This document shows positions 5,463-62,909 of a stretch of 64,000 nucleotides of DNA, piece by piece (positions within the stretch are counted from its first letter, which is position 1; the number at the start of each line of letters is the position of its first letter). The stretch covers positions 186,001-250,000 of the forward strand of contig NZ_JAUFQR010000003.1 in NCBI RefSeq assembly GCF_030409875.1. Reading direction: 5' to 3'. This DNA comes from Chryseobacterium tructae (GTDB lineage: Bacteria; Bacteroidota; Bacteroidia; Flavobacteriales; Weeksellaceae). The translations under genes and the position numbers were made by a program. The notes under the pieces are model-generated. The model saw only the letters and a list, made by a program, of their open reading frames with translations, had not been told where the DNA came from and ran no database searches.

Positions 5463-5486
5463 ATCGATAAATACGATAAACCAAAT

Positions 5487-5581: not shown

Positions 5582-5598
5582 CGATCGAAATATGGTTG

Positions 5599-28713: not shown

Positions 28714-28721
28714 TAAATTTG
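28714..28721 (+). promoter_or_regulatory. -7 element before the ABC exporter genes
   Basis: TAAATTTG fits the TAnnTTTG consensus and lies 15 bases before the permease ATG, just after the rfbA terminator. No TTTG -33 box is at the right spacing, so the promoter is only partly supported. Confidence 0.4.
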
Positions 28722-28736
28722 CAAAAACTTACACAG

Positions 28737-29584
28737 ATGAATGAACCACAGCAAAAGTGGACAGAAACAATTGAAGCGAATCATTCTTTATTTGATTTAA
28801 AGCTCAAAGAAGTATGGCGGTATAAGGATCTTGTTTACATGTTTGTAAAAAGAGATTTCATATCGAGCTTCAAGCAAACCATTTTGGGGCCAATCTGGTT
28901 TTTTATTAACCCGGTTTTAACAACAATAGTCTATCTGGTTGTTTTTGGAGCGATTGCCAAACTTCCTACAGATGGTGCACCCCCTATTTTATTTTATCTG
29001 TCTGGTGTAACTCTCTGGAATTACTTCTCAGCTTCATTGCTGACTACTTCCAGTACCTTTGTAGGGAATTCAACCATTTTCGGAAAAGTGTATTTCCCAA
29101 GACTGGTAACGCCACTTTCAGTTGTCATCTCAAACCTGATGCGTTTTGGAGTACAATTCCTTCTATTCCTTCTTGCATGGGCTTATTATCTGAGCCAGGG
29201 AAAGGTGCAACCTAATATCTGGATTCTTGCGACTCCTTTCTGATTATACTGATGGCCTTTTTTGCGTTAGGAGTAGGTATGATATTTTCGGCACTTACTA
29301 CAAAATATAAAGATTTGAGCATGCTTTTGGGATTTGGAGTCAGTTTATATATGTATGCTACTCCGGTTATCTATCCGGTATCTTCCCTTCCGGCAGGATT
29401 CAAAAAGCTTGCTTACTATAATCCGCTTACGGGGATTTTCGAGTGTTTTAAGTATGCATGGCTTGGCGTAGGTGATTTTTCGCCATTAATGCTGGGAATC
29501 AGCACAGTTCTGATTCTTATTCTTTTGCTATTGGGAATACTGATCTTTAATAAGGTTGAAAAGACCTTTATGGACACCGTATAA
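28737..29584 (+). CDS. Polysaccharide ABC exporter permease, Wzm-like (frameshifted in this sequence)
   Basis: This is the membrane subunit of an ABC-2 exporter that moves undecaprenyl-linked glycan across the inner membrane. RYKDLVYMFVKRDFISSFKQTILG and PIWFFINPVLTTIVYLVVFG are typical of Wzm/TagG permeases; about six membrane segments are visible. The frame stops at 29243 in ILATPF. Adding one C at 29240 gives TPFLIILMAFFALGVGMIFSALTTKYKD and continues to 29584, about 283 residues. I chose the ATG at 28737 over an in-frame TTG at 28719. The ATPase gene follows after 38 bases. Confidence 0.92.
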
Positions 29585-29622
29585 GATTTAACTGTTATCT
29601 TTAATCTAAAATCAATCAAAAC

Positions 29623-30873
29623 ATGCTGGCTTTAAAAGCAGAAAACATATCAAAACAATACCGTCTGGGACAGGTGGGAACGGGGACTCTCTCCCATGAC
29701 CTTAACAGATTCTGGCATAAAGTAAGAGGGAAAGAAGATCCTTATCTAAAAATTGGTGAAACGAATGACAGAACAACAAAAGGAGATTCTGAATATGTTT
29801 GGTCACTCCGTGATATCAATTTTGAGATTGAACAGGGAGATGCTGTAGGAATTATAGGAAGAAATGGTGCTGGCAAATCTACTTTACTCAAACTTTTAAG
29901 TAAAGTAACCAAACCAACAACCGGAAAGATTTATACTCAGGGAAGAATTGCCTCATTGCTGGAAGTAGGAACAGGATTTCACCCTGAAATGACAGGGCGT
30001 GAAAATGTATATCTTAATGGTGCTATTCTCGGAATGACCAGAAAAGAAATCACCCGAAAATTTGATGAAATCGTAGATTTCTCTGGAGTTGAAAGATATA
30101 TTGATACTCCAGTGAAAAGATATTCTTCAGGAATGTATGTTCGTCTGGCATTTGCTGTGGCGGCTCACCTTGAGTCTGAAATTCTGATTGTAGATGAAGT
30201 GCTTGCAGTAGGAGACTCTGAGTTTCAAAAGAAATGTCTTGGAAAAATGGGTGACGTAACAAAGGGGCAAGGAAGAACGGTACTTTTTGTAAGTCACAAT
30301 ATGGCTGCTATTAATGAACTTTGCAACAGTGCTATTCTTTTAGATAAAGGATCTGTAGTAATGCAAGGTGATAAGGATAAATGTATTATTGAATATCAAC
30401 GTAAGAATTCATATATCTCCCATTATGAAGCCCCAAGAGATAATTTCGAAATAGGTAATGAAAAAATTAAAGTTCAGGCTTATTCGGCAACACCTATTCA
30501 AGGAAATGTCCTGAATATCAATTCAGGAGTAAAAATAAAAATAGATTTTATAAGTACCATTCAAAATGCTACTGTAGATCTTTCGTTTTATGTGAAAAAC
30601 TCACATGAAGTAATTGTAATGAGTAATGGTTTTATGATTAGCGAAAACGGAGAACCTGGTGCGTATTCTATGAGCTTTGATATTCCTGCTAATATATTGA
30701 ATGAAGATTCTTATTATTTTGATATGTTCTGGGGAATAAACCGTTCTGAGATTGCATTCAAAACTCAATCTTTTGGTTTTGAGATCAATGGAATCAGAAA
30801 TCAATTCGGTGACATCAAAAAATCACCCGGTGTAATTTCACCCGCTATTGTTTCGGAAATCAAAAAATTATAA
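29623..30873 (+). CDS. Polysaccharide ABC exporter ATPase with C-terminal glycan-binding domain, Wzt-like
   Basis: The 416-residue protein powers glycan export. The Walker A motif GRNGAGKST is near residue 79. The signature and Walker B region YSSGMYVRLAFAVAAHLE to LIVDEVLAVGD is near residues 167-194, with SHNMAAI as the switch region. The last 150 residues or so form a beta-rich extension of the Wzt type, which in known O-antigen exporters recognises the finished polymer's end. Its presence points to chain-end-controlled, ABC-dependent O-antigen or capsule export rather than only teichoic-acid-type export. Confidence 0.93.
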   Translation: MLALKAENISKQYRLGQVGTGTLSHDLNRFWHKVRGKEDPYLKIGETNDRTTKGDSEYVWSLRDINFEIEQGDAVGIIGRNGAGKSTLLKLLSKVTKPTTGKIYTQGRIASLLEVGTGFHPEMTGRENVYLNGAILGMTRKEITRKFDEIVDFSGVERYIDTPVKRYSSGMYVRLAFAVAAHLESEILIVDEVLAVGDSEFQKKCLGKMGDVTKGQGRTVLFVSHNMAAINELCNSAILLDKGSVVMQGDKDKCIIEYQRKNSYISHYEAPRDNFEIGNEKIKVQAYSATPIQGNVLNINSGVKIKIDFISTIQNATVDLSFYVKNSHEVIVMSNGFMISENGEPGAYSMSFDIPANILNEDSYYFDMFWGINRSEIAFKTQSFGFEINGIRNQFGDIKKSPGVISPAIVSEIKKL

Positions 30874-46089: not shown

Positions 46090-46090
46090 C

Positions 46091-47026
46091 ATGAAGATTT
46101 CCGTAATTATTCCTGTATACAATGCAGAAAAATATATATCAAAAGCTGTAGAATCTACTTTACAGTTTGATGAAGTCTATGAAGTCATCTTGGTAGAAGA
46201 TCAATCTCCTGATAATGCTCTTCAGGTATGTCGTGAGCTAGCCCAAAAATATGATCGGGTACAACTTTTCCAACATCCGGATAAAGGGAATCATGGTGCC
46301 GGAGCCAGTAGAAACTTGGGAATAGAAAAAGCAACCGGAGATTTTATAGCCTTTTTGGATGCAGATGATTATTTCTTACCTAATAGGTTTACTGCTGAAA
46401 AAGAACTTTTTAAAGATCCAAAAATAGACGGTGTTTTTAATGCCATTGGCACGGAATATTTAACTGAAAAAGGGAAGGAAGAGTTTATATCCAATATCAA
46501 TGATAGTGAACTTTTAACTGTTAATTATGCAGCAGAAGGCAATGAAGTGTTCAGAGGCCTATTAGGACTTACTTCCAGAGTCTTTGGTTCATTTTTTACT
46601 TTAGATGCTCTTACCGTGAGAAGACATTCGCTTGAATCTAAAAAATTAAGATTTAATGAAGCTCTTCGCCTTCATCAGGATTCAGATTTTATTATTAAAC
46701 TCGCCCATCAATGTCATTTAAAATCCGGCATTATAGATCTCCCGGTGGCTATGAGAGGAATGCATGATGATAACAGGATCACCAAAATAATAAAGTATTC
46801 TCCACAATATAATCAACGACAGTTTCTTTTTTGGAATTCCCTTTACGAATGGTCTACTACTCTAGCTCTTGAAACAGATGTGGCGCAGCACATCTATCTT
46901 CAGAAAAAAGCATTCGAACTTTCAGGAAAAAAAGGAGTATCAAAAACAATGGGATTGTTGGCTGCTATTTTTAAAAACCCTAATATATTAAAAACAAAGT
47001 ATAGATTCACCTATTCTCATTCATAA
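46091..47026 (+). CDS. Family 2 glycosyltransferase, tandem paralogue 2
   Basis: The 311-residue protein is nearly superimposable on paralogue 1 over its whole length, with the same VEDQSPDNALQ, GNHGAGASRNLGIEKATGDF and FLDADDYFLPNRF motifs. It differs mostly in the middle (residues 140-200) and at 245-290. The equal length and head-to-tail arrangement indicate a tandem duplication. The products may add successive residues of the same sugar. About 260 bases without a gene follow. Confidence 0.9.
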   Translation: MKISVIIPVYNAEKYISKAVESTLQFDEVYEVILVEDQSPDNALQVCRELAQKYDRVQLFQHPDKGNHGAGASRNLGIEKATGDFIAFLDADDYFLPNRFTAEKELFKDPKIDGVFNAIGTEYLTEKGKEEFISNINDSELLTVNYAAEGNEVFRGLLGLTSRVFGSFFTLDALTVRRHSLESKKLRFNEALRLHQDSDFIIKLAHQCHLKSGIIDLPVAMRGMHDDNRITKIIKYSPQYNQRQFLFWNSLYEWSTTLALETDVAQHIYLQKKAFELSGKKGVSKTMGLLAAIFKNPNILKTKYRFTYSHS

Positions 47027-47287
47027 TATGTATTGGGCTTTTCTTTTCCAAAACCAGCAATAATAATTCCCACAAAAGAGGATTTTATTTTATTTTTTCA
47101 CTTTAAAATGAAGAATTTTTTGACATAAATCACTGCTGTGATTACATCTATGGTGTGTGTCGGCCATTTTATAGAAAAAAACAAAATCTTAATACCTTAA
47201 AATAAAATTAAAAGCTTAAATTTCGAATTCAAAAGGTACTAATAAAACGCAATTGTAATTCTAAATTTATTGTAAAAAGGAGAAGAA

Positions 47288-48231
47288 ATGAGGATCTCAG
47301 TAGTTATTCCCGTTTATAATGCAGAAAAGTTTGTTTCTCAGGCAGTAGACTCTGTTCTTCCGTTTGATGAAGTACACGAAATCATTCTGATTGAAGATAA
47401 GTCCCCGGACAACGCATTAAAAATATGTCACCAGCTAGCCGAAAAACATGAAAAAGTAAAACTCTACCAGCACCCGGATAAGGAAAACCATGGTGCCGGC
47501 CCAAGCAGAAACTTGGGAATAGAAAAATCAACCGGTGACTTTGTTGCCTTTCTCGATGCAGACGACTATTTCCTACCCAATAGATTCGATGCTGAAAAGG
47601 AATTATTTAAGGATCCAAAAGTCGAAGGAGTTTATGGAGCCCTTGGAGTACATTACTATTCTGAAAAAGCCAAAGAACAATACTACCAGTTATTTGGAGA
47701 CAGGCTAACCACAGTCTATAAAAAATACGAACCCAAAGATGTTTTTCCGGGACAGCTTCACATGTTGGGAAGTTTTGGACTGTTTAGTATTGATACCTTA
47801 ACAGTACGCAGGGAGTCTTTAATGAATAAAGTAAAACCATTATTCAAACCTCATTTAAGACTTCATGAAGACACGGAATTTCTATTTCGTCTTTCTTATT
47901 ATCTCGATCTTTATCCTGGAATTCTAGATAAAGCAATAGCTATAAGAGGGGTACATGAGAATAATAGAATCACAAAAGTAGATCTACGTGTCATAAATCC
48001 TGCAGTATCAAGGGCTATACTTTGGAAAGAAGTAGATCTTTGGTCGCAGACTGAAAACGAGATTTCCGAAGATGTCAGGATTCACATTAAAAGGATGCAC
48101 CGCAGCTTTGAAATTGCAAAAGCTCCTTTGCTAAAAAAATGGGGAATGATCATAAAAACTTCTTTACCGATTATCATAGCATAAGGTCTGGACTATATAA
48201 TATTAATTTCAGACATTCATTAATCTCTTAA
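47288..48231 (+). CDS. Family 2 glycosyltransferase, tandem paralogue 3 (frameshifted near 3' end)
   Basis: The N-terminus (RISVVIPVYNAEKFVSQAVDS, then LIEDKSPDNALKIC and FLDADDYFLPNRF) matches the other paralogues. The middle region GVYGALGVHYYSEKAKEQYY and FPGQLHMLGSFGLFSID is shared only with paralogue 4. The frame stops at 48184. Compared with paralogue 4, adding one A to the A-run at 48154-48158 restores FTDYHSIRSGLYNINFRHS and moves the end to 48231, about 315 residues. This comparison inside the window is good evidence for a missing base. Confidence 0.88.
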
Positions 48232-48467
48232 AAACTACAACCATAGATTACAACTTAAATTAAAACACAAAATCAAAAAAAGAATGCATTAAAAATTTCT
48301 GTTAAAATCATTTATTTCCTTTAATTCGGCAGAATTTTTGAATCAAAAATTAAAGAAACAATATATCTTTTTTTCCATAAAAAAATTTAGACATAAGTCT
48401 TTATAATTGATTATCTTGCAAAGCTTTTACACACACGAATGGTATAAAAAAATTAAGTTGACAAAAA

Positions 48468-49409
48468 ATGAAAATCTCAGTAATTATTCCCGTTTACAAC
48501 GCCGAAAAATATGTTTCCCAGGCGGTGGAATCTGCTTTGCAATTCGATGATGTCTATGAAATCATCCTGATTGAAGACAAATCACCTGATAATGCATTGG
48601 AGGTTTGTCAGCAGCTTGCAGAAAAGTATGCCAGGGTAAAACTTTATCAACATACTGATAAAGGAAATCATGGCGCAGGACCTACAAGGAATTTAGGAAT
48701 AGAAAAATCTACCGGAGACTTTATTGCTTTTCTGGATGCGGATGATTATTTTCTTCCCAATAGATTTGATGCTGAAAGAGAACTTTTCAAAAAGCCAGAA
48801 GTAGAAGGTGTATATGGTGCACTTGGTGTTCATTATTATACTGAAAAGGCGAAACAACAATATTATTCTTTATTTGGAGACCGGCTAACTACTGTTTATA
48901 AAAGACATGAGCCTAAAGATGTTTTCCCTGGGCAAATCTATATGCTGGGCAGCTTTGGCTTATTCAGTATAGATGCTTTAACGATCCGTAAAGATTGTTT
49001 AATTAAAAAAATGGATCCTTTATTTAAAGCTAGCTTACGACTACATCAGGATACAGAATTTCTGTTTAGGCTATCTTATTACCTTAATCTATATCCCGGA
49101 ATTTTAGACAAAGCTGTGGCTATACGTGGTGTACATGAAGACAACAGAATTACTCAGGTAGATTCTAAAAAAGTAAATCCGGCTACAACGCGCGTTCTTT
49201 TATGGAAAGAAGTAGATATCTGGGCAGAAAATGAACCTACTCTTCCTGAACATATAAAGCTTCATATCAAAAGAATGTACAGAAGTTTTCAGATCGCTAA
49301 TGCTTCCAATTCAAAAAAATGGGGGATGATCATGAAATATCTTATAACAGACTACAAAAGCATCAGATCTGGAATTTATAACATTAATTTCAGGAATAAT
49401 TTATTGTAA
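48468..49409 (+). CDS. Family 2 glycosyltransferase, tandem paralogue 4
   Basis: The 313-residue protein is a close relative of paralogue 3: both have VEGVYGALGVHYY, KDVFPGQ, SFGLFSID and RLHxDTEFLFRLSYYL, and the same C-terminal region IRSGIYNINFR. The start KISVIIPVYNAEKYVSQAVES and FLDADDYFLPNRF are shared by all four. It is preceded by a 236-base AT-rich gap after the repaired end of paralogue 3. Its stop lies 10 bases from the convergent SGNH gene. It is the last plus-strand gene before the minus-strand acylation block. Confidence 0.9.
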   Translation: MKISVIIPVYNAEKYVSQAVESALQFDDVYEIILIEDKSPDNALEVCQQLAEKYARVKLYQHTDKGNHGAGPTRNLGIEKSTGDFIAFLDADDYFLPNRFDAERELFKKPEVEGVYGALGVHYYTEKAKQQYYSLFGDRLTTVYKRHEPKDVFPGQIYMLGSFGLFSIDALTIRKDCLIKKMDPLFKASLRLHQDTEFLFRLSYYLNLYPGILDKAVAIRGVHEDNRITQVDSKKVNPATTRVLLWKEVDIWAENEPTLPEHIKLHIKRMYRSFQIANASNSKKWGMIMKYLITDYKSIRSGIYNINFRNNLL

Positions 49410-49419
49410 GTTATACCCC

Positions 49420-50337
49420 CTATCTCCCTCTGCTTGCAAGAATAGAATCTGCAATGCGGCCCGTAATCTTTCTACTTGATTCTTTATACAAATGGTTTCC
49501 ATCCGTATAATTATATTCTGAGTAATTTTCTGAGAAGTCAAAAAACTTCACATTCTGCTTCCTTGCCATATCCTTAAGCAATTTATTAAAAGAAGGATAC
49601 TTTTGATTTTCAATAGTTATGAGTCCTTTTGATGTAGGAAGACGAACCAGATAAACCTTACCTTTTGTTCTTAGATAATTAATCATTTCATTGATAGCTT
49701 TGATACGCTCCGGTGAAAGCTCTACCGTATTAGCCAGATCCTTATAAAAAAGCTCTTTTTTATTTGTTCTCACTGCTACAGAGTCTCTATGCATATTGAT
49801 ATTTACTTCCAGCCATCCATCTTGATGAAGAAAAGTATTGGATCGTCCCAGTTCTGCTCTTTCGGTGTAAATCTTGAACCAGCTTCGTGTATAATGCTTT
49901 AGCAGATATTCATAATTAGGAGACTGATCATAAAAAAACATATCATTCAATGGAGAGTGTTCTTCAGGGAAATCTTTTTCTTCTTTGATACTCTTATTTA
50001 GTGATAGATTCCATGGACTTACGGTCAAAATGAAAATTCCATTTTTGGTTTCAGGATCTAATTTTCTTTTTAAGGCTTTAAAGTAGATCTGTCCATAGGG
50101 TGATTCTACAATATTTAAAGAAAAATTATCAAAATTTGTGGAAAGCTTATTTTTCAATACTCCCGGAACCACTCCCTGAGAGCCACGAGAATCTCCCAAT
50201 ATCATATTCTGTGGTTTTTTAACCGCAAAATGCATATAATTATCATCTGTATTCCCATCTGCAAAAGAACCAAGAATGGCCAATACAATAAGTACAGCAA
50301 CAAAATAAGGCACTATTTTAATTAAAAACTTCTTCAT
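49420..50337 (-). CDS. SGNH/DltD-like protein paired with an MBOAT (pair 1)
   Basis: The ATG at 50337 gives 305 residues with one N-terminal membrane anchor (about residues 5-23) and an external domain. ILGDSRGSQGV carries the candidate nucleophile Ser50, and YTDGNHLYKES near the end supplies Asp279 and His282. Ser with a late D-x-x-H is the SGNH triad used by DltD and AlgJ/X-type O-acyltransferases. It starts 2 bases after the MBOAT stop. The likely role is to receive an acyl group from the MBOAT and pass it to the glycan. An upstream start at 50382 would overlap the MBOAT gene. Confidence 0.78.
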   Translation of the reverse strand: MKKFLIKIVPYFVAVLIVLAILGSFADGNTDDNYMHFAVKKPQNMILGDSRGSQGVVPGVLKNKLSTNFDNFSLNIVESPYGQIYFKALKRKLDPETKNGIFILTVSPWNLSLNKSIKEEKDFPEEHSPLNDMFFYDQSPNYEYLLKHYTRSWFKIYTERAELGRSNTFLHQDGWLEVNINMHRDSVAVRTNKKELFYKDLANTVELSPERIKAINEMINYLRTKGKVYLVRLPTSKGLITIENQKYPSFNKLLKDMARKQNVKFFDFSENYSEYNYTDGNHLYKESSRKITGRIADSILASRGR

Positions 50338-50338
50338 G

Positions 50339-51772
50339 CTAAAACTGAAAATAAATAAATTCATTATTCCCGAAGTTGGCATAACGGAGAATGATATAAA
50401 TAATAACGAGATAAGAAATATGCCTTATCCATGAGCCAAATCTTTTAATTTCCAATCCGTGAAACCTCTCCCTGTTGATCCATTCTACAATTAGCATAAA
50501 TCCTATCAATGCTAATACTTTTATCGGCAATGGATGTGGAATAGAAAGTAATTCACGACTAAAGATTCTTCCGATGTAATGAATCGCCTGTGTTACAGAT
50601 TCTGCCCTGAAAAAAATCCAGGCGATACAGGTGATCAAAAAAGTAAGCAGCATCTGAAAACACTCCTTAAAAGAGGGTAAAAATTTTCCCTGGGCAGCAA
50701 CTTCTATATTCTGACGATTTCTGTTCATGATCAGTAAAGGCATAAAATACAGAGCATTAAGTCCTCCCCAGATCATAAATGTCCAGTTTGCTCCATGCCA
50801 GAACCCCGAAACCAGGAAAATAATAAATGTATTCCTGATCTTCATCAAAATCCCGCCTTTACTTCCACCCAATGGAATGTATAAATAGTCTCTAAACCAG
50901 GAAGAAAGCGAAATATGCCACCTTCTCCAGAATTCGGCAATATCTCTGGAAAAATAAGGGAATGCAAAGTTTTTCAACAATTCAATCCCAAATAATCTTG
51001 AAACTCCCAGTGCAATATCTGAATATCCTGAGAAATCTCCGTAGATCTGAAAAGCAAACAATACAGTTCCTATCACAAGAGTTCCGGGACTTTCCGTTTG
51101 ATAATTATTAAATATCTCGTTCACCAGCGGAGCACAGTTATCTGCAATAACCATTTTTTTGAAAAATCCCCATAGAATCTGCCGCATTCCATCTACAGCT
51201 TGCTCATAATTGAAAACTCTTTCCCGCTGTATCTGGGGCAAAAGATGCGTTGCCCTTTCGATAGGACCCGCTACAAGAAGAGGGAAATAACTTACAAAAA
51301 CAGCATAGTCTGTAAAGCTTCTTTCTGCTTTTATTCTTTTTTTATAGACATCAATCACATAAGAGAGCCCATGAAATGTGTAAAACGAAATTCCTACAGG
51401 AAGTATAACGTTGAGTAGCCAAACATTGACCTTAAAACCAAAACCGCTAAGAAGATCTGCAAAGCTCTCCACAAAGAAATTATAATATTTAAAGAATCCT
51501 AGAAAGCCTAGATTGATAGCAATACTTAAAGTAAGCCAGAATTTAGCTTCCCGATTCGTCTTACTGTTCTCAATTTTAATTCCTGATAAATAATCCAATC
51601 CGATAGAAAACATTAGCAAAAAAAGGAATCTCCAATCCCAACAGGCATAAAAATAAAAGCTGGCCAATAACAGCAACCTGTTCTGTTCCTGAAATTTTCT
51701 ATTGAAAACAAACCAATAAAGACAAAATACTATTGGTAAAAAAATAAGAAATCCTATTGAATTGAATAACAT
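50339..51772 (-). CDS. MBOAT-family O-acyltransferase (pair 1)
   Basis: The 477-residue polytopic protein resembles AlgI and DltB. It starts LFNSIGFLIFLPIVFCLYWFVF and contains ILPVGISFYTFHGLSYVIDVY, VAGPIERATHLLPQI, the FWRRWHISLSSWFRDYLYIPLGG signature and the catalytic His326 in SGFWHGANW. Such proteins move an acyl group from a carrier inside the cell across the membrane. The SGNH gene follows immediately. The 317 bases upstream (51773-52089) hold no gene and no clear promoter. Confidence 0.93.
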   Translation of the reverse strand: MLFNSIGFLIFLPIVFCLYWFVFNRKFQEQNRLLLLASFYFYACWDWRFLFLLMFSIGLDYLSGIKIENSKTNREAKFWLTLSIAINLGFLGFFKYYNFFVESFADLLSGFGFKVNVWLLNVILPVGISFYTFHGLSYVIDVYKKRIKAERSFTDYAVFVSYFPLLVAGPIERATHLLPQIQRERVFNYEQAVDGMRQILWGFFKKMVIADNCAPLVNEIFNNYQTESPGTLVIGTVLFAFQIYGDFSGYSDIALGVSRLFGIELLKNFAFPYFSRDIAEFWRRWHISLSSWFRDYLYIPLGGSKGGILMKIRNTFIIFLVSGFWHGANWTFMIWGGLNALYFMPLLIMNRNRQNIEVAAQGKFLPSFKECFQMLLTFLITCIAWIFFRAESVTQAIHYIGRIFSRELLSIPHPLPIKVLALIGFMLIVEWINRERFHGLEIKRFGSWIRHISYLVIIYIILRYANFGNNEFIYFQF

Positions 51773-52089
51773 AGTAATTAGAAGATATGGATTATAACAA
51801 TTCTCTGAAACCGATTGTTTCTACTTTCATATGATTCTTTTTACAAAAAAATACAAATATTAAGTCTTTCTCCGATGGAATACTCTTTATTAATGGGGGA
51901 ATATTTATTATTTCAATCATTGTAAGTGTTTTAGGTTACACGATTTGTTTTCTGATCTTAATTACTCTCCTGACACTTTCAGTAAATTCTGAAATTAAAT
52001 TTACAATTCTTATTACTAAAACCTTATATATTATCTTTTTTTTCTAAAAATAATCTACTTTCAACCGCTTAAAATAACCTCGGCATTAT
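51773..52089. other. 317-bp gene-free gap between the two MBOAT/SGNH pairs
   Basis: The stretch is AT-rich and I see no coding frame, no hairpin terminator and no full promoter in it. It may still hold a start point for the second pair. Confidence 0.5.
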
Positions 52090-53028
52090 TCAATGAGATA
52101 AAACATTCCTTGCTACAACTCCCGAAAAAGCTTCCACAGATTTTTTATCCAAATGAACCTCATCCAGCCACTGGTAGCTATTCTCCAATTTATTATAATT
52201 GATATAGGAGACTTTTGTTTTCAAGGCAACAGCTTCCATACGGTTATCAAAATCCGGAAATGCTTTTTCTTCTATTGAATAAGGTGCTTTATTAACAGGC
52301 ATTCTTATGACCATCACCTTTCCGTGTTGCTTAAGAAACTCAATTGTTTTTTCAAGATAAAGAATTCTATTTTCAGACACTTTCAATCCGTCAATCCTTT
52401 CCTGAAATTTTATCATATTCTTTTTGTTGGACATCTCCTGCTTTTCCGGTGCAACCTTTTTTATGATTTTCAAATCATATTTTCCGTTGTCCAGGATCGT
52501 AGAAACTCCCACTACGTTTTTAGGAGGTAGTATTTTTTTATTGAGCTCATTGGTAATGGATGGATCGTAACTTTCAAACAGATATTCGATATTGGGACTG
52601 ATAGCCACCATAGAAGTCTTTGCAACGCTTTTATCATTTTCAATATAAAATTCCGGACTATCCGGTTTCTTTTTGTCAACCATTAAAGCTGTAGGCTCAA
52701 CTGTTACAATAAAAACACCATCCTTTGTTTCTGGCTTTATTTTTTTCTCAATAGACTCCAGATATTTAGGTCCATAAGGGGAATGTGCCCACGTAAAGGA
52801 ATAATTATATATAGCCGTATTGGGATATTTTGGATGTAAAATACGATCCATGATGAAAGGATCCATCAACGCAGCTCTGGAACTCCCCAATATAAAAGAG
52901 TTCTGCTGAGGAGATGTAAACCTCTTATAAAAATCATCAGTATTATGTGTTAAAAAATAGACGGCATATCCTAATACCAACAAAGGTAGTATAGAAAACA
53001 TCGCCAATCTTAAAAGTGATTTCTTCAT
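52090..53028 (-). CDS. SGNH/DltD-like protein paired with an MBOAT (pair 2)
   Basis: The 312-residue protein has one N-terminal membrane segment (about residues 7-26). ILGSSRAALMD holds Ser50 at the place of the GDS serine of the pair-1 protein, and WLDEVHLDKKS supplies Asp289 and His292. The overall layout, including SPYGPKYLESIEKKIKPETKDG, parallels SPYGQIYFKALKRKLDPETKNG in pair 1, so the two are paralogues. It follows its MBOAT by 54 bases. It probably completes acyl transfer outside the cytoplasm. Confidence 0.75.
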   Translation of the reverse strand: MKKSLLRLAMFSILPLLVLGYAVYFLTHNTDDFYKRFTSPQQNSFILGSSRAALMDPFIMDRILHPKYPNTAIYNYSFTWAHSPYGPKYLESIEKKIKPETKDGVFIVTVEPTALMVDKKKPDSPEFYIENDKSVAKTSMVAISPNIEYLFESYDPSITNELNKKILPPKNVVGVSTILDNGKYDLKIIKKVAPEKQEMSNKKNMIKFQERIDGLKVSENRILYLEKTIEFLKQHGKVMVIRMPVNKAPYSIEEKAFPDFDNRMEAVALKTKVSYINYNKLENSYQWLDEVHLDKKSVEAFSGVVARNVLSH

Positions 53029-53082
53029 AATTCAAATTATGCCGGAGCTTACTAAGTTCTTCCTATTATTTCCGTTAATCTG

Positions 53083-54519
53083 CTAAAACATAGCATACAT
53101 AAACCCTTTAGGAGCAATATAAAACAGAAAAACTAAAAACACCAATATATAATAAAAGCCCCATCGTAAAACAATGTTTCTCTTTACAAAAATCTCTTTA
53201 ATGGCATATTCTTTATCCCGGTTCCCCCATTCCAGCAATACCATAAATACCATTACCAATATAACTTCTTTTTGGATTGGAAAATTGGGCAACTGGAAAA
53301 ATGATAATGAGAAAATTCCCTGATAATATTTCGCAGCCATTTCCATATCTTTTGAAAAGAAAAGAATCATTAATAGAGTAAAAAGAACAAACGTTACCGG
53401 AATATTCTTTATTTCGTCTTTTGTTGGAATGAAGTTGTTAGATGTTTTCACCTTTTTATTCATTTTCCCACTCAAAATCAATGGAATAAACATGATTCCG
53501 CTTACCAACCCGTGAACAATATAATGCCATTCTGCCCCATGCCAGAAGCCCACCACCAGAAAATTAATAATGATGGCCATAATCAATCCATATTTATCAT
53601 AATCTCTGAAATGAATAGATAAAGGAGTGAAAACGTATTCAGTAAGCCAGGAGGTTAAAGAAATATGCCATCTTCTCCAATAATCAGCCACATTTTGAGC
53701 AAACAATGGATAATTAAAGTTAGGCTGAATTTTAATCCCTAACAGCTTGGAAATCCCTATTGCCATATCTGTATATCCTGAGAAATCTGAATACAACTGG
53801 ATAAAATATAATATTGCCCCAACGAATAAAGCACTTCCATTTAAGGTATGATAAGACTCAAATAGCGGAGAGGTAATTCCTGCAATATTATCTGCTACTA
53901 CCAGCTTCTTGAAAAGCCCCCATAAAATTTGTTTCAATCCATCTGTAAATTGAGGGGAAGAAAATTCTCTTTTTATTTTCAGATTCTTCAAAAATGGGGT
54001 AGCTCGGTCGATTGGCCCGGCAATAATACATGGAAAAAAGGCAATAAAAACCGCATAATCCAACAGAGATGGAATTTCCTTCAATTTATTATTTCTGATA
54101 TCCAACAAATAGCTTATCATTCTAAACGAATAGAAACTGATCCCTATCGGAAGGATAATTTTCAATACTCCTAATTGATTTTCAACTCCAAAAAGATGCA
54201 GGAAATCATTGAAGTTCTCAATGAAAAAATTAAAATATTTAAAATATAAAAGCTGAATCAGGACAATAAAAACCCCTGACCTCAGCCACCATACTTTAGA
54301 GGTATCTTTTGAAGCAGATTTTATTTTATTTCCAACAAAATAGGTAACCCCTGTTGTAGCCATCAATAAAAATAAAAACTCCCAGCTCCAACTGCTATAA
54401 AAGACATAGCTTCCCACAAGCAGAATGATATTTTGGATCTTTGAGGTTTTCCCGCTTAGATAATAAATAAAATAAAGCGCAATAAAGAATAATATAAAGC
54501 TGTATGAATTAAGAAGCAT
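53083..54519 (-). CDS. MBOAT-family O-acyltransferase (pair 2)
   Basis: The 478-residue membrane protein has the AlgI/DltB features ILPIGISFYSFRMISYLLDIR, IAGPIDRATPFLKNL, YWRRWHISLTSWLTEYVFTPL and His327 in VGFWHGAEW. It is a diverged paralogue of the pair-1 MBOAT. It begins 10 bases after the acyl carrier protein gene, the arrangement expected if the carrier delivers its acyl group to this protein. Confidence 0.93.
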   Translation of the reverse strand: MLLNSYSFILFFIALYFIYYLSGKTSKIQNIILLVGSYVFYSSWSWEFLFLLMATTGVTYFVGNKIKSASKDTSKVWWLRSGVFIVLIQLLYFKYFNFFIENFNDFLHLFGVENQLGVLKIILPIGISFYSFRMISYLLDIRNNKLKEIPSLLDYAVFIAFFPCIIAGPIDRATPFLKNLKIKREFSSPQFTDGLKQILWGLFKKLVVADNIAGITSPLFESYHTLNGSALFVGAILYFIQLYSDFSGYTDMAIGISKLLGIKIQPNFNYPLFAQNVADYWRRWHISLTSWLTEYVFTPLSIHFRDYDKYGLIMAIIINFLVVGFWHGAEWHYIVHGLVSGIMFIPLILSGKMNKKVKTSNNFIPTKDEIKNIPVTFVLFTLLMILFFSKDMEMAAKYYQGIFSLSFFQLPNFPIQKEVILVMVFMVLLEWGNRDKEYAIKEIFVKRNIVLRWGFYYILVFLVFLFYIAPKGFMYAMF

Positions 54520-54529
54520 ACAACAGTTG

Positions 54530-54765
54530 TTATTTAGAAGTTATAGAGTCTATCATTTCACCTACATCATTCCAGCTTCTGATTTCCGATGAAGTAAAAC
54601 GGATTCCAAAGCCTTTTTCTACCGCTACAATTAACTGAATATGAGAAAGTGAATCCCATTCTTCAATATCTTCTGCTGTAGTTCTGGAGTCAATACAATT
54701 TCATTATTGTCTAATTCATCACGGAAAATATCAGTCAGTTTAATTAAAATTTCATCCTTGTTCAT
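54530..54765 (-). CDS. Acyl carrier protein (small gene, frameshifted in this sequence)
   Basis: Translation from ATG at 54765 reads [21 protein letters not shown] second frame reads [20 protein letters not shown] and ends MIDSITSK at 54530. They join when one base is restored at the TT of 54682-54683, giving about 78 residues. DSLSH carries the phosphopantetheine-attachment serine (about Ser39), and the fold is that of the ACPs found next to FkbH-type proteins. It lies 18 bases after the FkbH-like gene and 10 before an MBOAT, so it probably carries the acyl group between them. Confidence 0.85.
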
Positions 54766-54783
54766 AATAGTTTGTAATATGTT

Positions 54784-56511
54784 TTATAGTTTATGATTTA
54801 TATATACTTGTTTGTTTTCGTATTTCTCTACATCCAGTACCCATCGTTCATCTTTTTCAGTGAAACCCAGTCCTTCATAATGGTTCATCACCATTTGGTT
54901 TTTAGCCGTTGGAATAAACTCTCCTTCTACATATTTATATCCATTTTTACGGGCTGTATCTATGATTGTATTTAAAGTAAAGTCTTCCATTCCTCTTTTC
55001 AGAACACGGCAGCTCATTAGCCATGTATCTATGAAGAGCGTTTCCTGATCTTTCTTTTCAAGAACAATTACACAGATCAGTCCATTATCACCATACTTAT
55101 CTTCAAGAGTAAAAGAAATGGTATAATGAGTATCTGAATTCATCAATTCTTCAACATCCTGTTCTGTATACCGTACTGTTCTCAGATTAAACTGATTAGA
55201 ACGTTGTGTCAATTGTGAAACCCTCGGTTTTGAAAAATTGTTGAATGCCTGAACATCAGAAACCATATGAAGACTCTTTAGAAAATCTTCAACGTTGGTG
55301 AATCGCTCTACATCAACAGCCCTTTGAGCTTCTACCTGATACTGTTTCGTTCTTTCAGTATCATTTTCTGAAAAGCTTGCTGTTTCGAAAAGATTTAAGC
55401 TGTAAAGGTATTCCAGATATTCTGCCGGATCTTCCGGAAGTTCCGGAACACAAACCTCAGGCAGGTTTTCTCTTACAATATTCCTTTCAAACGGATTATC
55501 ATCCAGGAACACCATAGAATCTAATCCTATATTCAAAATTCCCTGAATTTTCCTGATGTTATCCGCCTTATTCTCCCAATTGGCTACAAAAACAGCAATA
55601 TCTTCAAGCTTTAGAACCATATCAGGGTGTTTCTCGAAAGGTTCTTTGGCTTTATCTTCATCATTTTTACTGCAGACCGCAAGGATTATTCCTCTTTGCT
55701 GAAGCGCCTTCACCCAATATTGAAATTCTGTAAATGCTTTTCCGATCCCAAAACTTCCGATCTGTATTTTTTCAAGACCATCATCACCAATAATCCCACC
55801 CCAGGTAGTATTATCCAGATCAAGAATCAGACATTTCTTAAATTTTCCTTCCAGTGATGAAATAATTCCGGTAATATGATGAGCTACAATAGGTAGTATA
55901 TCAAGAGACAGCACCATTTCCGTATTCACATAGATATTAGGAGAAAACATAAAATCTCTTCCCCATTTATTCTGAATGGAAACCAGATCAGCAATAAAAA
56001 AATTATCATTTTTAAAAGCAATTTCTGCCGAAAGAAGATAATTAAGTTTATTCTGCTGGAAAACGAATGAAGATTCTACCTTATTGGAAAAGTTTCCAAA
56101 AACCTGATTATTGATCGATGGAAAATTACAGTAGATTACCCTGCTTTTGCTTCGTTCCTGTATCGTTTGATATAACTCTGTCACATAAGCAAGCTTATTT
56201 TCTGCAAAACAAACCTGTGGATCATATGATTTGTAATATTGAGCCAACAACTTATGCGAGGATTCAAAAATAATCGTATAATGAGCATTGAACTCATAGT
56301 ATTCAGATGTTGGATCCAGAATCTGGCGGGAGATCTGACCGAAATCAGCCTCAAAAATATCAAACTCAAAACCTTCGCCTATTGCTGTTCCTTTTAAAGC
56401 AACATTCAGGAATTGAGTTGCCGTATCACCCAACAGGGCAATCTTTATTTTTTTTAATTCTTTGGAATCTTTACGAAGTTCTTTTTTAAGCTCCGAAAAT
56501 GTTTTATACAT
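54784..56511 (-). CDS. FkbH-like HAD-IIIC protein (acyl-ACP loading)
   Basis: The 575-residue protein has three parts. An N-terminal SGNH-like domain begins KIKIALLGDTATQFLN. The HAD domain has the catalytic motif LILDLDNTTWGGIIGDDG near residues 225-242 and VFLDDNPFERNIVRENLP. A GNAT-like C-terminal part includes DTWLMSCRVLKRGMEDF. Studied FkbH-type enzymes take a glyceryl group from 1,3-bisphosphoglycerate, lose the phosphate and load it on an ACP. An ACP gene lies directly downstream. The acyl group in this locus is therefore likely glycerate or a derivative, by inference. Confidence 0.9.
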   Translation of the reverse strand: MYKTFSELKKELRKDSKELKKIKIALLGDTATQFLNVALKGTAIGEGFEFDIFEADFGQISRQILDPTSEYYEFNAHYTIIFESSHKLLAQYYKSYDPQVCFAENKLAYVTELYQTIQERSKSRVIYCNFPSINNQVFGNFSNKVESSFVFQQNKLNYLLSAEIAFKNDNFFIADLVSIQNKWGRDFMFSPNIYVNTEMVLSLDILPIVAHHITGIISSLEGKFKKCLILDLDNTTWGGIIGDDGLEKIQIGSFGIGKAFTEFQYWVKALQQRGIILAVCSKNDEDKAKEPFEKHPDMVLKLEDIAVFVANWENKADNIRKIQGILNIGLDSMVFLDDNPFERNIVRENLPEVCVPELPEDPAEYLEYLYSLNLFETASFSENDTERTKQYQVEAQRAVDVERFTNVEDFLKSLHMVSDVQAFNNFSKPRVSQLTQRSNQFNLRTVRYTEQDVEELMNSDTHYTISFTLEDKYGDNGLICVIVLEKKDQETLFIDTWLMSCRVLKRGMEDFTLNTIIDTARKNGYKYVEGEFIPTAKNQMVMNHYEGLGFTEKDERWVLDVEKYENKQVYINHKL

Positions 56512-56525
56512 AAATATTCTTTTTA

Positions 56526-56648
56526 TTAAAACATCAATGTATCCTCTTCTTCAGCTGAAAGCCCTTTTTTATAATATTCGTAACAAGTAAATTTCTGTAT
56601 CAGATCATCATCTGAAATATAGGTATTGGGAACAATTTTCATTTCCAT
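56526..56648 (-). CDS. Possible 40-residue small protein
   Basis: An ATG at 56648 opens a 40-codon frame ending 14 bases before the FkbH-like gene. The product is acidic and soluble, with IVPNTYISDDDLIQKFTCYE and an EEED stretch near the end. Its composition looks coding and it fits the gap between the acyltransferase-3 gene and the FkbH gene exactly. I recognise no family. A chance open frame is possible at this length. Confidence 0.45.
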   Translation of the reverse strand: MEMKIVPNTYISDDDLIQKFTCYEYYKKGLSAEEEDTLMF

Positions 56649-56681
56649 AATTGTGTTGCTTTGCTACAAAAATAAAGATTT

Positions 56682-57704
56682 TTATCTGATATTCACCTTT
56701 TTCAGATAATCTCTTAATGGCTTTTCAATACATTGATAAAACAAAATAGAAGTCAGGATAACAACGATTATATAAATCCCGAATACAGTGTCAATGGAAA
56801 AATTATATTTACCTACCACTTCTCTCAGAATGTAAAGAACAGGAATATGGGTAATATATACAGCATAGCTAGCCTCCCCAAGATATTCCAGAGGTTTCAA
56901 AGAAAATACCTTCGTCAAAACTCCGTTATTTTTAGAGATTAAAACAATGAGCGGAATAAAAAGTAATGCCATCAATCCGTTATGATAAAACCATGGAAGA
57001 AAAATCAATGACAATAATATGAGCCCGAAGATAATAATTACCGGTACATCATAATTCTTCTGACCTGAGTTCTTCACAAAAAATAATCCTGCAAGATTCC
57101 CAACCAGGAATTCATTAATATGCATCAGTGGAAAGTAGTACAATAACTCGTGGCTTTCTGTATGTGGCCCTTTATAATAAGAAGAATCTACATAAAGGCT
57201 GCAAAATACCTGGGTCATGATCCAGATAATAACCGTTACTACCCAAATACTTTTATTTCCTTTGGAATAAAAATAATTATACAGTAAAGGAAACAACAGG
57301 TAAAATAGAAATTCTACCGAAATAGACCACCCGGGAAAATTCAGGATCATCGCCTCACCGGGAATCCAGCTCTGAAGTCCAAACAAATACAAAAAACCTT
57401 TATAGATACTGAAATTGGAATATCGGGTTACCAAATACAACAAAAGTCCCAATACATACAAAGGGTAGATTCTGGCGAACCGATTTCTATAGTAATCAAA
57501 ATATTCGATTCTATTTTTTTTGTGATAAGCCACAATCATAATAAAACCTGAAAGAATGAAGAAGTAGCTCACTCCTACATTAGCTTTCAGGAATATATTG
57601 GATATATAATTAATTTTATATAAAAACAGATCTTTATTGAAATGGGAAATAACAATCGCCATAGCCGCAAGAAATCTGGTAAATGTAATCTGGCTTATTT
57701 TCAT
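56682..57704 (-). CDS. Acyltransferase 3-family membrane protein
   Basis: The 340-residue protein is of the OafA/NodX type. The N-terminal motif TRFLAAMAIVISHFNKDL has the conserved Arg and His, and about ten membrane segments follow, with YRNRFARIYPLYVLGLLLY and WSISVEFLFYLLFPLLY. It ends with CIEKPLRDYLKK. Such proteins move acetyl or other acyl groups to sugars at the cell envelope. It is one more candidate for decorating the glycan, independent of the ACP-linked system downstream. Confidence 0.92.
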   Translation of the reverse strand: MKISQITFTRFLAAMAIVISHFNKDLFLYKINYISNIFLKANVGVSYFFILSGFIMIVAYHKKNRIEYFDYYRNRFARIYPLYVLGLLLYLVTRYSNFSIYKGFLYLFGLQSWIPGEAMILNFPGWSISVEFLFYLLFPLLYNYFYSKGNKSIWVVTVIIWIMTQVFCSLYVDSSYYKGPHTESHELLYYFPLMHINEFLVGNLAGLFFVKNSGQKNYDVPVIIIFGLILLSLIFLPWFYHNGLMALLFIPLIVLISKNNGVLTKVFSLKPLEYLGEASYAVYITHIPVLYILREVVGKYNFSIDTVFGIYIIVVILTSILFYQCIEKPLRDYLKKVNIR

Positions 57705-57837
57705 AAAAACCGCTTAAACAACTGTACTATACATTTTATATGCACATTTTTTCATCCAGAAATCTTCAACTAAAGAGCTAATATTATTTTCATTGAAATG
57801 CATTAGAAAAGAGATCAATAATTATCTTTCTAAAAAA

Positions 57838-58608
57838 CTATTTAATGAAAACACCAATGTATTTTCCTTCGTATTCTACTACCGTAGTCTCTATATTATT
57901 CTTTTCACAGAAATCCTGATAAGCAGAATTATCACCAATATCATCACTGATGAAAACACCTCCTTTTCTTAAATGGCTGTAAAGCTCATCATAAGCCCAC
58001 ATTCTTCCATTATAACTCTTGTCAGAGTCATAGTGAAGAACGTCAAACGTAGCACTTTCAGAAAAGATCTTTGGTAAGGATTCTCTATCTGCAAAACGGA
58101 ATAATTTCCAATTGCCTTTAAGAGTCTCAGGGACTACATATCCTACATATTGGTCTCCATCCTGAGCAAGATATGGCATGTCTGAACTATACAGTGTTCC
58201 GTTTCTTTTTACCAGAGATAAAAGGGAAGCCAATGAAGACCATCCATATGCAACTCCTGTTTCCACAACATGCTGAGCATTAGCAAACTCACATGCATAA
58301 TAGATCAGCTCCAAAGCACCAGGCCCACCCATTTTCACGGGACAATCCTTTTCTCTTTGTGCTGCTGTAGCCAAAATATCTTGATAATCATTACGAAAAG
58401 CATCTATTTCAAGTCCAAACAACTTTAAAACTGCTTCTTTCTGTGATACTGCTCTTCCAGCTGCCCAGGAATTGGTCTTTTCCTTTCCCTTAAAGGCATT
58501 GCCTCTGTTAACAGTATTTTTAATAATTTTCCGGCCCAGTTCCGGATAAAGGTCGGGTCTTTTCAGATATCCGATAAATGTTTTGAGAACTCTTGTTATT
58601 TCACTCAC
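57838..58608 (-). CDS. Class I SAM-dependent methyltransferase
   Basis: The 256-residue protein has VVETGVAYGWSSLASLLSL near residues 109-127 in place of the SAM motif I, TLYSSDMPYL, FDVLHYDSDKSYNGRMWAYDEL and GGVFISDDIGDN. This is the layout of Methyltransf_24-type sugar or lipid methyltransferases. It is the first gene of the minus-strand block and is divergent from the glycosyltransferase at 58874. The methyl acceptor is unknown. Confidence 0.82.
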   Translation of the reverse strand: MSEITRVLKTFIGYLKRPDLYPELGRKIIKNTVNRGNAFKGKEKTNSWAAGRAVSQKEAVLKLFGLEIDAFRNDYQDILATAAQREKDCPVKMGGPGALELIYYACEFANAQHVVETGVAYGWSSLASLLSLVKRNGTLYSSDMPYLAQDGDQYVGYVVPETLKGNWKLFRFADRESLPKIFSESATFDVLHYDSDKSYNGRMWAYDELYSHLRKGGVFISDDIGDNSAYQDFCEKNNIETTVVEYEGKYIGVFIK

Positions 58609-58667
58609 TGTGTTGCCTTTAATAAAGCAAAAATAAAGATTTTTTTTTCATTTATATAAAAACAGAT

Positions 58668-58675
58668 TATATTTG
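58668..58675 (+). promoter_or_regulatory. -7 element in the divergent intergenic region
   Basis: TATATTTG fits the consensus exactly, with a T-rich stretch at -33 instead of TTTG. It could drive the plus-strand glycosyltransferase at 58874 with a leader of about 190 bases. The 58609-58846 gap holds no other recognisable feature. Confidence 0.45.
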
Positions 58676-58873
58676 TGTAACCCAAGTGAAAAAAAAGCAT
58701 TGCCTCTATCCCTATTATGAAAAATGCCAGTTTGTCATCAGAATTTCATTTTTCAATGAACAATTTTCTTTCCGTATATTTCCTGAAGTATTCGTCTGCA
58801 ATACCTGATAAAAATGCAAAGTACTGTAATTATCAGACAGGAATAAATGATCAACACTCATTATAAAAACAAT

Positions 58874-59713
58874 ATGAAGTTTTCCGTACTTATTGCTCAT
58901 TACAATAATGCCGCGTTGTTTAGGGACTGTTACGATTCCCTTACAAAACAAACCTACCCAGATTGGGAAGCTGTTGTAGTAGATGATGCATCTTCAGAAA
59001 ATGAAAGAGAACAAGTAAAAGCTCTTATTGCAGGAGATGAAAGATTCAAGTTTTTTGAAAATGAAAAAAACAGCGGTGTCGGTGTTACCAAAAGCAGACT
59101 TATAGAATTGGCTACCGGAGAAATCTGTGGTTTTGTAGACCCTGATGATGCCATACTTCCTACAGCTATCGAAAAGGCAATACAGATTTTTAAAAATAAA
59201 AAAAAAGTAGTCCTTACTTATTCCCGTTTTATGGGATGTGACAAGGATCTGAAACCTATTACCCCTTTTAAATCTGCCATGCAGGTAAGGAATGGGGACC
59301 CTTATTTCTTTAATTATCCCAATCAGATCAATCATTTTGTAACGTTCAGAAAGGATGTTTATGAAAAAACAGAAAAGATGAATACGGAATTAAGGATTGC
59401 AGAAGATCAGGATCTGTACCTCAAAATGTATGAAAAAGGTGATGTTTATTTTATAGAGGATACCAATTATCTTTACAGAGCCCATTCCGGAGGTATTTCT
59501 CAAAACGACAACAAAGGAAAATCGTATGATTACTTTGCTCAGGTTGTTTTGGCAACTATGAAGAGAAGAAACCTCACCAGCATCAATGGGAAAAAGATTC
59601 CGGAAAAATACACCACTCATCAGGAGATTTTCGCATTGTTGGAATATCAGCATGGAATTTGGTACAGGATAAAGAAAAATATAGTCATTACATTACAAAA
59701 ACTTTTCAGATAA
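58874..59713 (+). CDS. Family 2 glycosyltransferase
   Basis: From the ATG at 58874 the product has 279 residues and starts KFSVLIAHYNNAALFRDCYDSL. It has VVDDASSENEREQVK for nucleotide binding, SGVGVTKSRLIELATGEI, and the metal motif FVDPDDAILPTAIEKA near residue 90. RIAEDQDLYLKMYEKG carries the ED motif. An in-frame ATG at 58847 would add nine atypical residues. Its stop overlaps the next start by one base (TAATG), so they are coupled. Confidence 0.9.
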   Translation: MKFSVLIAHYNNAALFRDCYDSLTKQTYPDWEAVVVDDASSENEREQVKALIAGDERFKFFENEKNSGVGVTKSRLIELATGEICGFVDPDDAILPTAIEKAIQIFKNKKKVVLTYSRFMGCDKDLKPITPFKSAMQVRNGDPYFFNYPNQINHFVTFRKDVYEKTEKMNTELRIAEDQDLYLKMYEKGDVYFIEDTNYLYRAHSGGISQNDNKGKSYDYFAQVVLATMKRRNLTSINGKKIPEKYTTHQEIFALLEYQHGIWYRIKKNIVITLQKLFR

Positions 59714-61632: not shown

Positions 61633-61865
61633 TAATCTTCAAAGTTTTCTTTACCAATAAGATCTCTTAGATCTGAAACCGTTTCAATGTCTTTAAAATG
61701 TTTTGTATCAACTTTTTTATTGAAATTTTCGTCTACAAAAGCGATAACGGAAAGTAAGCTGATAGAGTCATAGCTTTCTAATGCTTTCAGATTCGTATCT
61801 AATGTAAGCGTTTCATCTTCTTCTAATTCTTCTTGTAATTTTTCCAAAAAAACGGATGTCTTCAT
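61632..61865 (-). CDS. Acyl carrier protein
   Basis: The 77-residue acidic protein has the ACP fold and the phosphopantetheine serine, Ser34, in ESYDSISLLSVIAFVDE; DSI replaces the common DSL. Its stop overlaps the SDR gene by one base and it starts 25 bases after the KASIII-like gene. It is distinct from the ACP at 54530-54765. It probably carries the chain made by the flanking KASIII and SDR enzymes. Confidence 0.92.
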   Translation of the reverse strand: MKTSVFLEKLQEELEEDETLTLDTNLKALESYDSISLLSVIAFVDENFNKKVDTKHFKDIETVSDLRDLIGKENFED

Positions 61866-61890
61866 ATATTTTTTATTTATGATGTTATAA

Positions 61891-62865: not shown

Positions 62866-62909
62866 ATAAATTCTTTTTCTTTGCAAAAGTAAAAAACAAA
62901 TTTACAATA

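Follow-up and report, generated by a model that had tools for sequence, protein, structure and literature searches.

The DNA analysed here, a 64-kb stretch of the Chryseobacterium tructae genome (the window), carries on its minus strand genes for an FkbH-type protein, an acyl carrier protein (ACP) and two MBOAT-SGNH pairs, in the order FkbH-ACP-MBOAT1-SGNH1-MBOAT2-SGNH2, and five of the six genes are intact open reading frames (ORFs). This order, on one strand and at this place, is the one given in an initial annotation made from the letters alone, which had read the genes as a Dlt-like system with two MBOAT-SGNH pairs. The comparison with related genomes showed that the unit is FkbH-ACP-MBOAT1-SGNH1, a swappable cassette set into a probable O-polysaccharide acylation locus, MT-AT3-MBOAT2-SGNH2, which exists also without the cassette. 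The features of the locus are the following:

51852..56607, minus strand: cassette FkbH-ACP-MBOAT1-SGNH1; bounds from the empty site in relatives without FkbH
54784..56511, minus strand: FkbH-type protein, 575 aa, with FkbH_N, HAD-IIIC and a GNAT-like C-terminal domain, predicted glyceryl loader (TIGR01686, FkbH_N)
54533..54765, minus strand: ACP gene, two frames in this assembly (intact 78-residue copy in the closest relative, G015, with PP-binding over its cut-off there)
53083..54519, minus strand: MBOAT1, 478 aa, His285 and His327, C-terminal FMYAMF (Pfam MBOAT 70 bits)
52090..53028, minus strand: SGNH1, 312 aa, N-terminal helix, Ser50/Asp289/His292 (AlphaFold model, Foldseek)
50339..51772, minus strand: MBOAT2, 477 aa, His286 and His326, C-terminal FIYFQF (Pfam MBOAT 102 bits; separable from FkbH)
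49420..50382, minus strand: SGNH2, 320 aa, Ser65/Asp294/His297 (family partners are MBOAT2 or an FkbH-linked MBOAT3)
56682..57704, minus strand: AT3, an Acyl_transf_3 membrane acyltransferase of the underlying locus (Pfam 102 bits, cut-off 31)
57838..58608, minus strand: MT, a Methyltransf_24 S-adenosylmethionine (SAM) methyltransferase of the underlying locus (Pfam 43.8 bits, cut-off 26.3)

Protein families of the locus

The FkbH-type protein scored 310 bits against TIGR01686 (cut-off 146.65) and 232 bits against FkbH_N, and its residues Asp231, Asp233, Ser281, Lys315, Asp337, Asp338 and Cys501 were invariant among 31 aligned sequences; the domain score over the curated cut-off, together with the HAD residues, places it in the FkbH family. 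Both MBOATs exceeded the Pfam MBOAT cut-off and matched solved DltB chains by sequence (for MBOAT1, E about 4e-31 with 8jem and 6bug), while remaining far from the DltB equivalog TIGR04091 (150.7 and 178.3 bits, cut-off 375). The FkbH and MBOAT assignments of the initial annotation were in this way confirmed, and the residues that it had pointed out, namely the FkbH DLDNT motif, His327 and His326 of the MBOATs and the Ser plus D-x-x-H of the SGNH proteins, are all present. Each MBOAT carries at its own C-terminus the acyl-shuttle motif FxYxxF (F or Y first), as FMYAMF in MBOAT1 and FIYFQF in MBOAT2, and the motif was found in 90/91 MBOATs of the genus and in 58/60 from the named loci described below.

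Neither SGNH1 nor SGNH2 passed any Pfam or NCBIfam cut-off, the Pfam DUF1574 match on SGNH1 lying below its own, and an SGNH1 profile gave no credible match among PDB sequences (best E 0.024, a peroxiredoxin), so that a fold comparison was needed. The AlphaFold model of SGNH1 (pLDDT 91) has the SGNH fold, and Foldseek ranked PatB first (1.1e-5) and DltD 6pfx fifth (5.2e-4). What stands of the earlier SGNH calls is the modelled fold for SGNH1 and the catalytic residues for both proteins, and not a family score. The ACP serine was kept in 118 of 118 ACPs collected from the genus and the named loci.

Conservation, distribution and neighbourhood of the cassette

FkbH was present in 52 of 148 genomes of the genus, at 53 loci, 52 of which were fetched with their flanks, the 53rd being the window. 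Conserved co-occurrence had been set beforehand as a test of the initial annotation, and 50 of the 53 loci showed FkbH and a dedicated ACP beside an MBOAT-SGNH pair, in support of its view that these two stand in for DltA and DltC; the other three (L080, L081, L082) hold a different FkbH type without these cassette partners. The MBOATs of the fetched loci fell into a type with MBOAT1 (M1, 17 genes), a type with MBOAT2 (M2, 38) and a third type, M3 (34), with 2 others. M1 or M3, the FkbH-linked types, occurred in 50 of 52 FkbH-positive and in 0 of 96 FkbH-negative genomes (Fisher 1.5e-37; table 50/0/2/96, n=148), a linkage far beyond chance. M2, scored as present at 70% identity or more, occurred in 62/148 genomes, 30 of them without FkbH, and was still commoner with FkbH (32/52 vs 30/96, p 0.0005). 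The MBOAT tree places MBOAT2 in a separate clade from the FkbH-linked types. Of 20 additional MBOAT2 loci, all fetched as stretches that lack FkbH, 16 had AT3-MBOAT2-SGNH2 side by side (among these 16 genomes, G006 and G028 carry FkbH elsewhere), the other four being in other contexts.

The bounds of the cassette were given by an empty site, seen in 5 of 5 aligned loci from FkbH-less genomes as a gap at about 51852-56607 with AT3-MBOAT2-SGNH2 retained. L240 aligned to window positions 58999-56608 and 51851-49001, with its two flanks 15 bases apart; in L243 the flanks were 14 bases apart, and L241, L244 and L248 gave similar bounds, the range outside L240 being 5 to 129 bases. The SGNH tree interleaves loci that have the cassette with loci that lack it; since the cassette label needs five changes there, the cassette was probably gained or lost repeatedly. 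SGNH1-type genes form one clade paired with M1, and SGNH2-type genes pair with M2 or M3; it appears that the SGNH gene stays and the MBOAT and loader genes are exchanged.

Two further arrangements were seen in the genus. In five species (L032, L043, L044, L063, L076) a plain FkbH-ACP-MBOAT1-SGNH1 cassette is free-standing, in a different neighbourhood without glycosyltransferases, and in L032 a transposase-like ORF, as read from its sequence, lies antisense between FkbH and ACP (7304-7738). At 13 loci (L031, L034, L035, L042, L045, L048, L049, L065, L067, L069, L070, L072, L075) an MBOAT2-type gene lies upstream of FkbH, and its partner is an SGNH-like protein unrelated to SGNH1 and SGNH2.

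The loci differ in the genes that separate FkbH from the MBOAT. Between FkbH and M3 we found a SAM methyltransferase with a VOC protein (16 loci), VOC alone (3) or MaoC with an SDR (15), and between FkbH and M1 no tailoring gene in 16 of 16 cases. Catalytic residues were conserved across the genus and named loci: in MaoC His34 (35/35) and Asp29 (34/35), in the SDR Tyr147 and Lys151 (32/32), and in VOC His5, Glu54 and His73 (37/37) and Glu121 (36/37). On the MBOAT tree the five tailoring classes need 4 changes, which is the minimum, with the caveat that the long M1 and M2 branches meet; four classes need 12 changes on the FkbH tree (minimum 3), and three classes need 5 on the SGNH tree of the M3 loci (minimum 2). 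The labels were clustered beyond shuffles on all three trees. We read this as MBOATs that may be matched to the acyl group they receive.

Outside the genus, FkbH over its cut-off was found in 28 of 395 genomes of an even phylum sample and in 14/148 genomes of a family sample, where the cassette with an intact ACP was present in 3/11 outside the genus (L149, L150, L151). Among the 80 best loci from a scan of named organisms with FkbH profiles (the named loci), 72 had an ACP and 52 an ACP and an MBOAT in the same-strand run. Eleven of these 52 are Chryseobacterium or Kaistella, the others including Flavobacterium, Pedobacter, Prevotella and Bacteroidales and, from outside Bacteroidota, metagenome-assembled genomes of Treponema, Omnitrophota and Bacillota, whose contigs are possibly mis-binned. 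Downstream of FkbH these loci have 52 MBOATs, and directly after 44 of them comes a same-strand protein of 250-420 residues, a candidate SGNH. Plasmids gave FkbH matches in 119 records, 40 of them Sinorhizobium. A Sinorhizobium meliloti pSymB record (L263, 4837-10716) reads VOC-MBOAT-(409 aa)-ACP-FkbH, with an MBOAT ending in FLYQGF and the 409-aa SGNH-like protein annotated as a TonB-dependent receptor; a Rhodobacteraceae plasmid reads ACP-FkbH-MBOAT-(358 aa)-VOC, and two other plasmids that we opened hold FkbH-ACP without MBOAT. The proteins beside the plasmid MBOATs have an N-terminal hydrophobic stretch, G-x-S, D-x-x-H and no Pfam match, and would be SGNH proteins in our reading. FkbH relatives are also encoded by phage-collection records from human faeces, MT835480.1 (71410-73137, 36% identity) and MT839313.1 (3-881, 57%).

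In the window the locus belongs to a glycan cluster with UDP-glucose dehydrogenase, RmlB, RmlA, an ABC exporter, a DegT aminotransferase, a hexapeptide acetyltransferase and many glycosyltransferases. The exporter is the following feature:

28719..30873, plus strand: Wzm/Wzt-type ABC exporter genes, Wzm split in this assembly (Wzt ABC_tran 78 bits)

RmlB, RmlA and Wzm were assigned on intact G015 copies (ABC2_membrane 60 bits for Wzm), the NCBIfam Wzt and Wzm matches being below their cut-offs. Wzm/Wzt is probably the exporter of the acceptor polysaccharide. At 45154-49409 four alike glycosyltransferase family 2 genes lie in a row, closest to each other within the first and the last pair. At 60874-62886 KAS III, an intact second ACP and an SDR lie in a row, a possible supply of 3-hydroxyacyl-ACP. 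As a donor system for MBOAT2 this row was not supported by co-occurrence: KAS III orthologues (74% identity or more, two partial) occurred in 73/148 genus genomes, 29 of the 62 MBOAT2 genomes had none, 27 KAS III genomes had neither MBOAT2 nor FkbH, and the association was p 0.51 with MBOAT2 and p 0.085 with FkbH. The sole Rfam match of the window at its gathering score is a SAM riboswitch (RF00162, 65 bits, 5486-5582), and none was found within 48000-60000 at E 0.5. Upstream of eight genes scanned, no Bacteroidota-type promoter (a TTG and TAnnTTTG pair) was present, and lone TAnnTTTG matches occurred upstream of FkbH, MT and KAS III only.

Proposed glyceryl relay and its alternatives

We propose, with a probability of about 0.7, that this is a carrier-fed, PatAB-like O-acyltransferase cassette that puts glyceryl on an ABC-exported polysaccharide, and that the second pair is independent of FkbH. 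We infer substrate, direction of transfer, acceptor and every tailoring product as follows. FkbH would take D-1,3-bisphosphoglycerate, its HAD domain removing the phosphate, and load D-glyceryl as a thioester on the phosphopantetheine of the dedicated ACP, glyceryl being the acyl group expected from the FkbH family. Glyceryl-ACP would dock on the cytoplasmic side of MBOAT1, whose His327 would assist acyl transfer to the tyrosine in the C-terminal FxYxxF of this MBOAT at the outer face; the acyl-tyrosine would pass the group to Ser50 of SGNH1. SGNH1 would then place it as an ester on a sugar hydroxyl, and the acceptor polymer is probably the polysaccharide exported by the Wzm/Wzt transporter of the same locus. 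A polymer exported by an ABC transporter is complete before export, and a membrane-crossing acyl relay would therefore be a natural route of decoration. MBOAT2-SGNH2 would work without FkbH and would most likely be fed by acetyl-CoA.

In the relatives, the extra genes would alter the ACP-bound acyl group before transfer, with the MBOAT matched to that chemistry. A methyltransferase could give O-methylglyceryl, VOC could epimerise C2, as methylmalonyl-CoA epimerase is a precedent for a VOC epimerase, and MaoC with the SDR could dehydrate and then reduce glyceryl to lactyl, a route for which the bryostatin loading module is said to be a precedent.

Some points weigh against this proposal. The ACP gene of the window is broken, with a 44-residue frame that stops early and the part with the D-S-L serine in another frame (pieces 54765-54682 and 54682-54533). 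MBOAT1 would have to take up its acyl group from an ACP, a step that we predict; the TM-scores of SGNH1 to PatB and DltD are just 0.34-0.51, and many GDSL esterases match equally. To our knowledge, no glyceryl ester is known from this organism. In the even phylum sample an MBOAT stood beside FkbH in just 5 of the 28 genomes (G000, G056, G072, G532, G326), and FkbH therefore has other uses too. Finally, part of the match between MBOATs and tailoring genes arises because adjacent genes are inherited together; FkbH is about as near to the tailoring genes as the MBOAT is, so that linkage alone explains the difference between the MBOAT and FkbH trees poorly.

The alternative that survives best leaves the mechanism as it is and changes the acceptor to another exported glycan, for example a Bacteroidota protein O-glycan. 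It is possible, if clearly less likely: glyceroyl is mentioned as a rare modification of Bacteroidota O-glycans in a review (PMC12871550) and the five free-standing cassettes lie outside this glycan locus, but the window copy sits in an ABC-exporter polysaccharide locus.

It is unlikely that the carrier is loaded with a different acyl group (e.g., phosphoglyceryl, or that of another acyl phosphate), which the cassette would then transfer. The FkbH assignment is one of similarity and leaves room for this, yet its score is far over the cut-off and the HAD phosphatase residues are kept, and MaoC with SDR, the methyltransferase and VOC would all have simple chemistry on a 2,3-dihydroxypropionyl thioester.

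We also give little credit to a cassette that is dead in this strain, the ACP frameshift being a true mutation. The initial annotation noted the ACP serine and overlooked the frameshift, and no second FkbH was found in the genome. Against a true mutation, the ACP is a single frame in the other 49 loci of this type in the genus, G015 among the relatives having a 98% identical FkbH and one 78-residue ACP frame. Of 50 G015 genes, 13 had no single window frame covering 93% of them: nine, ACP included, matched in two pieces, one was shortened near its end and three were apparent window edges or unlike ends. The split genes sit at 3068-38468, 48154 and 54533-54765, and many of the differences between window and G015 are of one base in short runs. 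The reverse comparison flagged 5 of 56 window ORFs with no clear split case; these we read as locus edges, an unlike gene, coverage at the limit and a 70-residue ORF (2654-2866) aligning in three pieces. The window assembly (completeness estimate 97.3%) thus seems to hold many one-base errors, and, because relatives have the ACP in one piece and the same kind of split affects eight more window genes, the ACP break is a probable, if unproven, assembly error; the remaining cassette genes are intact. A further contig, of 864,646 bases, is listed with SGNH1 as well; the contig of the window has 864,536, or 110 fewer.

Similarly improbable is that a single pool of glyceryl-ACP serves both MBOAT-SGNH pairs for the acylation of two sites or acceptors, as the initial annotation had suggested. 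In the window and in seven relatives the two pairs do lie after FkbH-ACP on one strand, and SGNH2-type proteins also partner the FkbH-linked MBOAT3; the absence of FkbH from 30 genomes with MBOAT2, the complete AT3-MBOAT2-SGNH2 loci without the cassette and the separate MBOAT2 clade speak against it, and two glyceryl sites were rejected for pair 2 on this independence from FkbH. Least probable is that FkbH-ACP feeds a cytoplasmic sugar N-acyltransferase and MBOAT-SGNH is a separate O-acetylation pair: elsewhere in the phylum it is common for a locus to have FkbH-ACP and no MBOAT, and amino sugars with N-glyceroyl are known (PMC6120980), but FkbH co-occurs strictly with MBOAT1 or MBOAT3 in the genus, the empty site spans four genes, ACP and MBOAT recur at FkbH over phyla and the MBOAT tree follows the tailoring genes.

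Comparison with known acylation systems

The glyceryl relay proposed here shares with the Dlt pathway an acyl thioester on a dedicated carrier, an MBOAT that matches DltB by sequence and an SGNH protein. It differs in that FkbH takes the place of the adenylating DltA, with no ligase among the proteins scanned from the cassette and its neighbours, in that the shuttle motif is fused to the MBOAT with no DltX, and in that it lies in a Gram-negative polysaccharide locus; the DltB cut-off is not reached either. The role of the acyl-shuttle motif is described for PatA and DltX in excerpts of PMC12148441. As three defining features are missing (the DltA ligase, the DltB equivalog and a separate DltX), the cassette is not a Dlt system by membership; it is Dlt-like on the donor side and PatAB-like on the transfer side. 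The earlier label thus holds for the carrier-fed donor side and fails at the shuttle motif, which is at the MBOAT C-terminus as in PatA.

With PatA/PatB the cassette shares an MBOAT with a C-terminal FxYxxF and a separate, adjoining SGNH protein, the SGNH1 fold matching PatB. Excerpts of PMC12148441 (2025) describe PatA as an acetyl-CoA user and MBOAT-SGNH pathways other than Dlt as having no similar carrier protein; here, carrier and loader are part of the cassette, and each of the 50 loci of this type in the genus has an ACP gene, that of the window being split. Pair 2 has no carrier in its MBOAT2 gene run.

FkbH proteins of polyketide and peptide pathways (Tmn16, AbyA2, the suomilide protein BslA) transfer glycerate from 1,3-bisphosphoglycerate to a carrier, an O-methyltransferase domain may follow, and Tmn16 makes glyceryl-S-ACP in vitro, according to excerpts of PMC3625739 and PMC13122637; their product is a small molecule, whereas here a membrane acyltransferase and an SGNH protein lie in a glycan locus. 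Gellan of Sphingomonas carries L-glycerate and acetate esters on one glucose, and the excerpts of PMC9104527 and PMC9737242 name no glyceryltransferase gene; FkbH homologues are listed for Sphingomonas, Erythrobacter and Novosphingobium. Among the openly licensed PMC papers listed for these subjects we found no described system of FkbH-ACP-MBOAT-SGNH make-up and none that joins HAD-IIIC with ACP and O-antigen; the two papers on FkbH with MBOAT deal with cyanobacterial peptides, in which the MBOAT is a separate sugar acyltransferase, and the one on glyceryl with ACP and MBOAT deals with plants.

If the proposal is right, the cassette would be a widespread exception to the carrier-less non-Dlt MBOAT-SGNH pathways. 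Excerpts of a 2025 review (PMC12871550) call the timing of rare O-glycan modifications such as glyceroyl unknown, and those of PMC6120980 call the gene for the N-linked glyceroyl of Tannerella forsythia elusive; the cassette may explain the origin of some of these rare glycerate groups, and it offers concrete candidate genes for O-linked glyceryl, together with a code that is predicted to link the genes present to the acyl group. The related gene set on S. meliloti pSymB belongs to an experimentally tractable organism. A broader reading, to which we would give even odds, is that in several phyla FkbH-ACP serves transmembrane glycan acylation as a general platform for the supply of C3-acyl groups. 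It would then be, next to Dlt, another branch of MBOAT-SGNH acylation that uses a carrier protein, and one origin of the glyceryl esters of bacterial glycans. One loader would make glyceryl-ACP, swappable tailoring genes would convert it to epimer, O-methylglyceryl or lactyl thioesters, MBOATs would evolve to recognise the acyl group while the SGNH proteins retain the acceptor, and cassette exchange at fixed loci would re-code surface chemistry.

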